NCBI RefSeq assembly: GCF_013046825.1
Contig: NZ_CP053187.1
Coordinates: forward strand, 2,390,001-2,454,000
Reading direction: 5' to 3'
DNA length: 64,000 nt
Source of the DNA: Turicibacter sanguinis
GTDB taxonomy: Bacteria > Bacillota_I > Bacilli_A > MOL361 > Turicibacteraceae
Positions 49,777-55,277 of this stretch are shown here, piece after piece. Under the pieces are notes generated by a model, which was given only the letters and a program-made list of their open reading frames with translations, ran no database searches and was not told where the DNA came from. A program made the translations under genes and the position numbers. The first letter of the stretch is position 1, and every line of letters begins with the position of its first letter.

Positions 49777-50073
49777 ATGAAGCAATGGTTAGAGTTTTTA
49801 AAGTTAAGAATTCATAATTACGGTTTTTGGATTTCTATCTTTTCATTAGTTGTTCTTGTTTTACAAACATTCGAGATTCCGATATTCCCTCATTATGATT
49901 TGATTGTCAACATTATTTTATTGCTCCTATTAGTCTTCGGGATTATCAATAATCCAACCACGACTAATAAATGGTTTGGAGATGATAAAAAAGAACATGA
50001 AATGCTAAATCAAATAGAGGATACTTTAAAAGAACTTAAAAATGAGGGTCAAGAAAAGAATGATAGCTTTTAG
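49777..50073 (+). CDS. Small membrane protein with acidic helical tail, 98 aa
   Basis: This 98-residue protein has two TM helices (FWISIFSLVVLVLQTF, LIVNIILLLLLVFGII) after a short amphipathic start. An NNPTT turn and a charged C-terminal helix (EHEMLNQIEDTLKELKNEGQ) follow. The arrangement looks like a phage holin (phi29/bacteriophage holin class), but no phage genes are near, so it is only a resemblance. RBS AAAGG is rather far. Monocistronic as far as can be seen. Confidence 0.6.
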   Translation: MKQWLEFLKLRIHNYGFWISIFSLVVLVLQTFEIPIFPHYDLIVNIILLLLLVFGIINNPTTTNKWFGDDKKEHEMLNQIEDTLKELKNEGQEKNDSF

Positions 50074-50206
50074 TCTTTAAACTTTAGGCGAAAGCATATA
50101 TGTTTCCATCATTTGTGAATAAGATACAGTAGAGCAGAGATTGTAGTAAAAGTTAAAGTAGGATAAGAACTTGTGATTTGATATCTCTAATTCGAGGTGA
50201 GGGAAA

Positions 50207-50416
50207 ATGCTTAATCGAGGTAAAGATGGTTGGAATAAAGGCATGCTTCAAAAAGAAACAAAAACATCCTCTAGTGTCAGAAATACAAAAAAAACGCCTC
50301 TTCAACAGTTTGATGTTGCGGCTTTCTTTGAAGAAAATCTTTATGACATCATTGATTTAGAAGAAAATCGTTCCGGTGTTAAAGAATTCGAAGATGCTGT
50401 AAAGAAAGAAGAGTAA
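50207..50416 (+). CDS. Small hydrophilic protein, possible antitoxin partner
   Basis: This 69-residue protein has a basic front half (NRGKDGWNKGMLQKETK) and an acidic helical back half (FDVAAFFEENLYDIIDLEENRSGVKEFEDAVKKEE). No family recognised. GGTGAGGG before ATG 50207 is a strong RBS. The next gene, MazF/PemK-like, starts two bases after its end. This layout (small first gene, toxin-fold gene second, tightly coupled) is that of type II toxin-antitoxin operons, and the acidic tail could block the toxin, but no DNA-binding domain is clear. Confidence 0.6.
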   Translation: MLNRGKDGWNKGMLQKETKTSSSVRNTKKTPLQQFDVAAFFEENLYDIIDLEENRSGVKEFEDAVKKEE

Positions 50417-50417
50417 A

Positions 50418-50966
50418 ATGAGTGAACTTCCACGGTTAGTCAATAGTAAAGATATTTCAAGAGGAAAAATCTTTTATGTTGCATTGCCTTATACACAAGG
50501 AAGACCATTTAGATTCATCGAAAAAGATGAACAACATTCAAAAATGTATCGAATTATCGAGAAAGAGGATGGCTTTCAAGGGAAATCTGAACCCCAAACA
50601 GGGAAACGACGATCAGAAAGCCTTGAAATTGTAACAGGAATCAAGTTAAGACCATGTATTGTGATTCAAAAAGATCAGTACAATCATAATGAAAAATACC
50701 CATTTGTTGTCATATTACCCATTGCGACACTCTCTGAAGATCATAAAAAAAAACCTATCTTTAAACGATTAATTGAACGTAATGATTTAGATCAATTTTA
50801 TTATTTAGGAAATGATTGTTACATTACGGTTAATGATCCAAAAAGAGTTTATAAAAATACGCTCTTTTATGTAGAAGGTCATCTCAAAATTGATGAAAAA
50901 GAAATTGACATGGATGAGTTAATGATGCGCTTTGCAGAGTGTTTTGATGTGAAAAAGATTAGATAA
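50418..50966 (+). CDS. MazF/PemK-like protein, long form
   Basis: This 182-residue protein has MazF-like signposts: ISRGKIFYVALPYTQGRP (compare RGDIYWVDL) at about residues 13-30, and GIKLRPCIVIQKDQY (compare RPVVVIQND), then KYPFVVILPIATLS. Classical MazF proteins are about 110-120 residues. Here about 45 residues are inserted between the first two strands, and a C-terminal part with FYYLGNDCYITVNDPKRVYKN replaces the usual short end. The MazF Arg before Pro-x-V-V is kept. It may be an mRNA interferase or a domesticated relative. Coupled to the small gene ahead of it. Confidence 0.6.
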   Translation: MSELPRLVNSKDISRGKIFYVALPYTQGRPFRFIEKDEQHSKMYRIIEKEDGFQGKSEPQTGKRRSESLEIVTGIKLRPCIVIQKDQYNHNEKYPFVVILPIATLSEDHKKKPIFKRLIERNDLDQFYYLGNDCYITVNDPKRVYKNTLFYVEGHLKIDEKEIDMDELMMRFAECFDVKKIR

Positions 50967-50983
50967 CATAGGGAAGAATGAGG

Positions 50984-51014
50984 AAAAGTAGAGGGTGAAA
51001 GCCTTCTACTTTTT
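50984..51014 (+). terminator. Terminator after the MazF-like gene
   Basis: AAAAGTAGA with GG pairs with CC and TCTACTTTT, followed by T. One mismatch in the stem. Confidence 0.75.
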
Positions 51015-51060
51015 GTATCTAGGGGTTCAAATCAAGTTTGCATAATTGAAAACTTTGACT

Positions 51061-51124
51061 TTTCCCTACTAGAGATGGTGACTTTTTTAAGAGTAGGGGA
51101 GTATTCGGACGATTTTACTCCCCC
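51061..51124 (+). other. Two mutually exclusive hairpins (possible switch or small RNA)
   Basis: CCCTACT (51064-51070) can pair with AGTAGGG (51092-51098), while GGGGAGTA (51096-51103) can pair with TACTCCCC (51116-51123). The two stems share bases and exclude each other, as in attenuators. Only a weak CTTT follows the second stem, so it may not be a terminator. The Cys-tRNA deacylase gene starts 250 bases later. No known riboswitch motif seen. Confidence 0.35.
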
Positions 51125-51156
51125 TTTGGTGAGATGATTCCTTTAGAGGATTCATC

Positions 51157-51266
51157 CTAAAAAGTTTTATGAATTGAGACTGATTCAAGGACTGTAGATG
51201 TTCTGATGTTTTGCGTTCAAAGCAATTGTCAACTTCTAGGCAAACCTATGATGATTTCTATTTAGA
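51157..51266 (+). repeat. Degenerate intergenic repeat, copy A
   Basis: This stretch runs from CTAAAAAGTTTTAT (51157-51170) to CTATTTAGA (51258-51266). It shares, in the same order and nearly the same spacing, several blocks with copy B at 53419-53525 (CTAAAA-GTTTTAT, GACT-ATTC, TTTTGC, CTATTTAGA). Neither contains an ORF. The similarity is by eye and moderate. Confidence 0.4.
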
Positions 51267-51371
51267 CGGATTAAAATAATCATAAAATTAATTTAATCAC
51301 AGAGAAATCTCATGCACTTCTTCGATTTTCAGGTATAATAAAGTTATTTTAAGAAATAGGAGTTGAGTAAC

Positions 51372-52638: not shown

Positions 52639-52992
52639 ATGTTAAAAGAGTTAAATCAAATAAAAAATCAGCGTTATGGATATGTTCGTGTTAAATTGTT
52701 GATTGATTATTGGGAACATCTCTCGCAAATTAAATCGGTTGAAGTAGGAACCATAATTTATAAGGGGCGGCAGTTAGAGTATGGTGTGCTTGCCAAAGGA
52801 TGGAATCATCATGGAACTTATATTCAATTGCTGTATATTTTGAATTCCCCAAAAGATGAATACCACTTTTTAATTGGAAATGTGAAGGGTCCTGTAGAGG
52901 AGTATGAGGATTACCGATTAAAGATTGATGATGTAGTACCAATGAATGAATCTTTAATCGAGTATATTATTGATTTGAATCGATTATTATGA
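52639..52992 (+). CDS. Hypothetical protein, 117 aa
   Basis: This 117-residue soluble protein is not recognised. It reads as alternating strands and helices: LIDYWEHLSQIKSVEVGTIIYKG, LEYGVLAKGWNHHGTYIQLLYIL, DEYHFLIGNVKGPVEEYEDYRL, PMNESLIEYIIDLNRLL. A strong RBS (GGAGAGAG) precedes the ATG. Flanked by gene-poor sequence on both sides, it may be an accessory gene. Confidence 0.65.
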   Translation: MLKELNQIKNQRYGYVRVKLLIDYWEHLSQIKSVEVGTIIYKGRQLEYGVLAKGWNHHGTYIQLLYILNSPKDEYHFLIGNVKGPVEEYEDYRLKIDDVVPMNESLIEYIIDLNRLL

Positions 52993-53681: not shown

Positions 53682-55277
53682 GTGAACGAAAATCACATCG
53701 ATAAACGGTCAACGAATTTAAAATGTAAACCACCTTATATTGATCCCTCAAATCCTGATAGTATCCCAAAATATATTGATCGACTCCCTATTCCCAAAAA
53801 AGCAGCACGTGAAATTTGTACTGAAACATATGATGCATACCGTATCACTATGAAGGAAGCGTTTCATACCTTCCATTCCTATTTTCCTAAAACGAAAGTT
53901 TGGGGATATAATGGAAAATATCCGGGTCCAACCATCGAGGCATTTAAAGATAGAATAACTTATATACGCTGGGAAAATAAATTGCCTGAAAAACATATCC
54001 TTCCCTATGATTACATGCTTCATGGGACCATAGATACACCTGAAGTTAAAACAGTTGTTCATGTTCATGGTGCTCATGTAGAGCCTGAAAGTGATGGCCA
54101 TCCGGAAGCCTGGTTTACTCAAGATTATGCGCTTAGAGGACCACACTTCACTAAGAGGGTATATCAATATACCAATCATCAACCTTCTACAATGTTGTGG
54201 TATCATGATCATGCCATGGGAAGTACGAGATTAAATGTATATGCTGGCTTGGCAGGATTATATCTGATTAGAGATGAATTAGAAGAAAGGTTAAATTTAC
54301 CGAAAGGTGCGTTTGAAATTCCAATTATCATCCAAGATAAATCGTTTAATCCAGATGGATCATTGTTATATCCTGAACCATTGATTAATCCAGATCCACC
54401 TGCTCCCATTACTGGATTTTTAGGTAATACTATTGTAGTTAATGGAAAGATTTGGCCATGTTTAGAAGTAGAGCCTCGTAAATATCGTTTGAGATTTCTG
54501 AATGCATCTAATGAAAGAAATTATGATTTAAGCTTTTCTAATGATGCCTCTTTTTATCAAATAGGAACTGATGGAGGATTTATAAAAGAAACGAATGAAA
54601 TCAAATCTTTTAAAATTTTCCCTGCTGAAAGAATCGATACCATTGTAGATTTTTCAGACTATAAAGGTAAAACGATTATTTTAAAAAATAACGGAGATGA
54701 CGTAGATTCCAATACGGCCGTTATTATGCAATTTAAAGTTTCCTCTAAACGTTCAAAACCCGATACTAGTGAGATTCCAACGAGACTTAATCCTTATGAC
54801 CATTTAACTGTAACAGATGCTGTTACTACTCGAACTTTAAGACTTGGAGCGAAGACTGATTCAAATGGAAATTTGATGCTTGATCCGGATGGGAGACTGA
54901 TACTTGTTTTAAATAATCGAATGTGGCATGAACCAACGACTGAGATTGTTAAAAGTGACACAATAGAAGTTTGGAATATAATTAATCCAACACCAGTTAC
55001 ACATCCGATTCATATCCACTTAGTTCAATTTCAAATATTATCTAGAACGTCGATTGAAACAGGAGAAGAACTTCCAATTCACTCGTATGAACAAGGATTT
55101 AAAGATACGGTTGAAGTACCTTCTGGAACCATTACAAGTGTTGCGATGCATTTTACTGGATTTACGGGTGAATACGTCTGGCATTGTCATTTGTTAGAAC
55201 ATGAAGATCACGATATGATGAGACCTTTACGTGTTATTGAAGGGAGCTTACCCAGTAGAGAAAATCCTATAGTATAA
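53682..55277 (+). CDS. cotA: Multicopper oxidase, CotA-like
   Basis: This 531-residue laccase-type enzyme has three cupredoxin domains and all four copper motifs: HVHGAHVEPESDGHPEAWF, WYHDHAMGSTRLNVYAGLAG, HPIHIHLVQF and HCHLLEHEDHDMM with the axial Met. These bind type 1, 2 and 3 coppers. It is closest in pattern to Bacillus CotA, a spore-coat laccase also known as bilirubin oxidase. No signal peptide, as in CotA, fits spore-coat deposition. The start is GTG 53682 with RBS GAGGAAG. Its surroundings are long gene-poor gaps, and Arg codon AGA is frequent, so it may be acquired. Confidence 0.92.
   Translation: MNENHIDKRSTNLKCKPPYIDPSNPDSIPKYIDRLPIPKKAAREICTETYDAYRITMKEAFHTFHSYFPKTKVWGYNGKYPGPTIEAFKDRITYIRWENKLPEKHILPYDYMLHGTIDTPEVKTVVHVHGAHVEPESDGHPEAWFTQDYALRGPHFTKRVYQYTNHQPSTMLWYHDHAMGSTRLNVYAGLAGLYLIRDELEERLNLPKGAFEIPIIIQDKSFNPDGSLLYPEPLINPDPPAPITGFLGNTIVVNGKIWPCLEVEPRKYRLRFLNASNERNYDLSFSNDASFYQIGTDGGFIKETNEIKSFKIFPAERIDTIVDFSDYKGKTIILKNNGDDVDSNTAVIMQFKVSSKRSKPDTSEIPTRLNPYDHLTVTDAVTTRTLRLGAKTDSNGNLMLDPDGRLILVLNNRMWHEPTTEIVKSDTIEVWNIINPTPVTHPIHIHLVQFQILSRTSIETGEELPIHSYEQGFKDTVEVPSGTITSVAMHFTGFTGEYVWHCHLLEHEDHDMMRPLRVIEGSLPSRENPIV

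Follow-up and report, generated by a model that had tools for sequence, protein, structure and literature searches.

A small gene and a MazF-like gene of Turicibacter sanguinis form a tightly coupled operon, which we interpret, with a probability of about one half, as a domesticated, type II toxin-antitoxin-like module. In this module a MazF-fold RNase or RNA-binding protein would act under its small partner. The ORF list of the window (the whole 64,000-nucleotide stretch that was analyzed, 2390001-2454000 of the 3.0-Mb single-contig genome) places the two ORFs in tandem on the forward strand, where a first-pass annotation had located them (Table 1). A broader reading is more tentative and in our judgment falls short of even odds. 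It holds that the pair is a lineage-defining MazF-fold module with a rebuilt active site, an enlarged RNA-gating loop and a two-motif partner of an undescribed family, and that it serves Turicibacteraceae as a core RNA regulator and is not a selfish locus. Turicibacter is common as a gut commensal, and few studies have addressed the functions of its genes.

Table 1. Features of the gene pair and their positions in the window.
Feature	Position	Strand	Basis
5' leader/promoter region of the pair	50115..50206	+	About 90 nt before the start codon align well in five Turicibacter genomes
Small partner gene, 69 aa	50207..50416	+	ORF, conservation, no family match
PemK/MazF-family protein, 182 aa	50418..50966	+	PF02452 above the curated cut-off, structure-model match
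Insert of about 44 residues (32-75), β1-β2 loop	50511..50642	+	Alignments with ordinary Bacilli MazFs
R78, equivalent of MazF catalytic Arg25	50649..50651	+	Invariant column in a 28-sequence alignment; role per PMC7354611
A103 at the MazF catalytic Thr48 position, followed by Thr104	50724..50726	+	Alignment; role of Thr48 per PMC7354611

The pair has the layout of a type II toxin-antitoxin module, a two-gene operon with the small gene first and strict pairing. A good ribosome-binding sequence precedes the 69-residue ORF. The stop codon of this ORF ends at 50416 and the MazF-like gene starts at 50418, a spacer of one base and not the two previously given. In two relatives the stop and start codons overlap as TAATG. 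The gene order, the one-base spacer or overlap and the strict pairing across two genera favor the domesticated module. The conserved leader is confined to about 90 nt in the five Turicibacter genomes, and sequence farther upstream diverges. No Rfam family at the cut-off, covarying structure or sigma-70-type consensus match was found in the leader. Directly upstream of the pair, a 98-residue small membrane protein is encoded at 49777-50073 (+) and has no counterpart at the locus in relatives. It matches the phage holin family PHROG 297 (E 1.7e-9), and its Pfam Phage_holin_1 match is just below the cut-off.

Sequence comparison and modeling indicate that the 182-residue protein is a diverged member of the PemK/MazF family. 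Residues 76-157 match Pfam PemK_toxin (PF02452) with E=1.5e-6 and 28.8 bits, above the cut-off of 23.1. The same family matches all six orthologs, which bears out the MazF relationship suggested by the first-pass annotation. Among PHROGs, the protein matches a MazF-like growth inhibitor family (6.7e-6); neither NCBIfam nor PADLOC gave a match, nor did searching the PDB directly by sequence. Profile comparison with ordinary Bacilli MazFs aligned only the RP-x-x-V-I-Q-x-D core (26 columns, 91% probability). In a multiple alignment, the protein tracks MazF from β1 (RGKIFYVALP) through the C-terminal helix.

An AlphaFold model from an alignment seeded with ordinary MazFs was of moderate confidence (pLDDT 59.7, pTM 0.60). 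Its best PDB match had an E-value of 2.7e-5, TM-scores normalized to the target reached 0.76, and all 50 of the PDB matches listed are MazF-family structures. The model supports a MazF fold, though seeding of the alignment partly drives the match. The model from orthologs alone had a pLDDT of 35.5, which made a fold search from it meaningless. The set of orthologs is small and closely related, a limitation for the structure model as well as for residue-level inference. The Pfam match in all orthologs and the model match favor the domesticated module; the moderate confidence of the seeded model and the low pLDDT of the ortholog-only model count against it.

The insert between β1 and β2 agrees with the length of about 45 residues noted earlier. 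Within the genus, 28 of its 44 positions are invariant. In MazF, the β1-β2 loop acts as a gate for RNA, and MazE displaces it (PMC7354611; PMC4803016). The location of the insert in this loop is a further point for the domesticated module.

The active site combines a conserved and a replaced residue. Mutating Arg25 or Thr48 (T48A) severely reduces the activity of Bacillus cereus MazF, and the catalytic Arg is thought to be the general acid/base (PMC7354611). R78, equivalent to Arg25 of B. subtilis/B. cereus MazF, is invariant in all 28 aligned sequences, which favors the domesticated module. The ordinary MazFs in the alignment carry Thr or Ser at the position of Thr48, whereas all five full-length Turicibacter rows read PIAT, with Ala103 at this position and Thr104 adjacent. 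This alanine, equivalent to the T48A substitution that cripples B. cereus MazF (PMC7354611), argues against the domesticated module. The canonical EQIRTID-type motif is replaced by VNDPKRVY. The C-terminus is thus changed in sequence, as the first-pass annotation had it, but its end is still a predicted helix.

These substitutions bring in an alternative, also raised by the first-pass annotation, that the two genes encode a catalytically dead, derived RNA-binding pair, which has lost cleavage and works in Turicibacteraceae as a housekeeping RNA-binding or regulatory complex. The catalytic Thr/Ser is missing from every full-length ortholog and the EQIRTID-type motif is changed, which fits this alternative, as do the unusually strong conservation, the fixed chromosomal position and the invariant positions within the insert. 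It accounts less well for the invariant Arg78, the presumed general acid/base in MazF, and for the retained antitoxin-first gene order. In addition, Thr104 could substitute for the missing residue through a one-residue shift. We consider this alternative possible but less likely than not.

The small protein has two oppositely charged parts. Residues 1-34 are basic (net +6) and contain a WNKGM motif. Residues 35-69 are acidic (net -8) and form the block KKTPLQxFDVxAFFEENLxDIIDLEENRSGVxEFE. Identity within the genus is 84-91%. A second genus of the family encodes a homologue of about double the length and with a longer linker; it keeps the N-terminal WNKGM and a nearly identical C-terminal block. 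The dN/dS of the small gene is 0.05-0.13, which indicates that it encodes a real protein. The close spacing, or overlap, of the two genes would also suit a mere leader ORF that sets translation of the MazF-like gene and has no functional partner role. Conservation at the protein level, together with a C-terminal block kept almost letter for letter in two genera, makes this explanation highly improbable.

As the first-pass annotation stated, the small protein matches no known antitoxin family. Searches of Pfam, NCBIfam, PHROGs and PADLOC gave no significant family (best E 0.13), and the PDB gave chance-level matches only. Pfam, NCBIfam and PADLOC revealed no AbrB/SpoVT or RHH DNA-binding domain at E<=10. 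By eye, ENLYDIID looks like the ENLHENID stretch of E. coli MazE; this likeness was dropped, as shuffled sequences score as well. A profile of 13 MazE tails scores the small protein at 0.6 bits, which 6702 of 19281 scored shuffles equal. Pairwise comparison with the tails gave a max-score p of 0.53 (0.043 for E. coli MazE alone). The lack of a recognizable DNA-binding domain and of significant MazE-tail likeness counts against the domesticated module.

The same results bear on the possibility of an ordinary, active MazEF-type module whose antitoxin has diverged past recognition. Its gene order, size and overlap suit a type II module, the toxin matches PF02452, and several antitoxin families unrelated to one another are known as partners of MazF toxins (PMC2701414). 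However, no MazE, RHH or AbrB domain appears at E<=10, and the MazE-tail comparison is at shuffle level. The catalytic Thr is replaced, and the pair is not mobile and was not found in the plasmids, phages and viral contigs searched. An ordinary MazEF module is therefore unlikely.

All five Turicibacter genomes searched have both genes, side by side and at one shared locus. The pair is also present in one genome of the second genus, in which the MazF gene is cut by a contig end. The two genes are thus adjacent in each of the six genomes that have either, and so the small gene is conserved with the MazF gene, which passes a refutation check set by the first-pass annotation. In both genera they lie downstream of the same alpha-glucosidase gene. 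The gene order alpha-glucosidase, pair, YbaK-like, DUF1294-like is common to the genus. Both genes are missing from two genomes of a third genus; these genomes are uninformative about an empty site, because the flanking alpha-glucosidase is also without a close match there.

Elsewhere in Bacilli, no further copy was found of the MazF variant among 392 sampled genomes or of the small gene among 295. Neither gene was found on viral contigs. In phages and plasmids the MazF variant was not found, with matches only at chance level at E-values up to 10. A Listeria phage match was rejected because it sits within a 607-residue permease-like ORF. A scan of genome contigs with two short near-exact patterns, which reach close relatives only, returned Turicibacter only; Clostridia were covered solely by these patterns. 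Eight other weak PF02452 matches in Bacilli, picked out of the set with partial profile coverage, have neither the insert nor the small gene. Contig C176 of genome G006 has a PF02452 match that was considered as the continuation of that genome's cut MazF gene and rejected, as it belongs to a different PemK protein.

Both genes are under strong purifying selection, with dN/dS values mostly between 0.02 and 0.13. Between this genome and its relatives, dN of the pair is lower than that of the alpha-glucosidase, YbaK, DUF1294 and Fur genes. The pair belongs to the genus core and is inherited vertically. Its earlier description as accessory-like does not hold, given the synteny and high conservation of the locus across the genus. 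The suggestion of a new toxin-antitoxin type is not established, as there is a substitution at one of two catalytic positions and the locus is inherited vertically as part of the genus core. Selfish toxin-antitoxin modules are typically patchy and mobile. The pair is neither, which counts against the domesticated module; purifying selection on both genes, with dN below most neighbors, counts in its favor. Stable inheritance suggests a host function. Toxin-antitoxin modules turned fixed housekeeping genes are rare and debated.

The neighborhood varies in other respects. In four relatives a gene of about 550 codons, aminotransferase/decarboxylase-like by eye, separates the YbaK-like gene from the pair. 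This genome lacks it, and the corresponding interval is 50968-51360. A 117-residue protein encoded at 52639-52992 (+) has no significant Pfam match and is 47-49% identical to proteins at the same locus in two relatives. A gene for a 531-residue protein at 53682-55277 (+), multicopper-oxidase-like by eye, has no counterpart at the locus in three relatives.

The domesticated module may work by analogy with MazEF, in which the MazE tail wraps MazF, covers its active site and forces out the β1-β2 loop (PMC4803016). The MazF-fold protein probably uses its conserved surface and Arg78 to bind RNA, and perhaps also to cleave it. The small partner is likely flexible, and its acidic C-terminal block probably rests on the MazF-fold protein, with the enlarged β1-β2 loop as the likeliest contact. 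In this way the partner would control access of the MazF-fold protein to RNA, possibly inhibiting it, in the fashion of a MazE tail. The loop is enlarged and conserved, and the partner keeps its ends and varies its linker; control of RNA access is the simplest reading of these features. The second-genus small protein, with kept ends and a very different linker length, fits a flexible wrapping partner.

Known MazF systems resemble the pair in part. MazEF/PemIK modules (PF02452), including B. subtilis EndoA, S. aureus MazF and B. cereus BC0266, share the toxin family and probably the fold, the gene order and the catalytic Arg. The Turicibacter pair differs in its insert, in the Ala at the Thr48 position, in having no recognizable AbrB/RHH MazE partner and in its genus-core inheritance. 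In the predicted MazF-XF1863 module, MazF genes likewise adjoin a small family that fits no characterized antitoxin (Makarova 2009; PMC2701414). A MazF with an unusual partner is therefore not new in principle. The XF1863 family is reported chiefly from proteobacteria and Chlorobi/Bacteroidetes (PMC2701414), and it is set apart from the Turicibacter pair by description, not by sequence. The solitary MazF-mx of Myxococcus xanthus is also chromosomal, has no MazE and appears to have been co-opted by its host. Unlike the Turicibacter pair, it lacks a partner gene next to it, and there is dispute over its role (PMC4803016).

An unnamed PemK/MazF family toxin is listed, with no further detail, in a 2024 note on a Turicibacter genome (PMC11320971). 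The open-licence literature searched yielded no case that unites the insert, the altered active site, an undescribed partner and inheritance as part of the genus core. Such a variant, fixed in the genus core with its active site altered and its partner unrelated to known ones, offers a clean test of the conversion of a MazF fold into a regulator. Two Turicibacter genomes also encode a different, 256-residue PemK-family protein (L040:1843-2613 and L041:1913-2683), which has no obvious adjacent antitoxin and carries long N- and C-terminal extensions.
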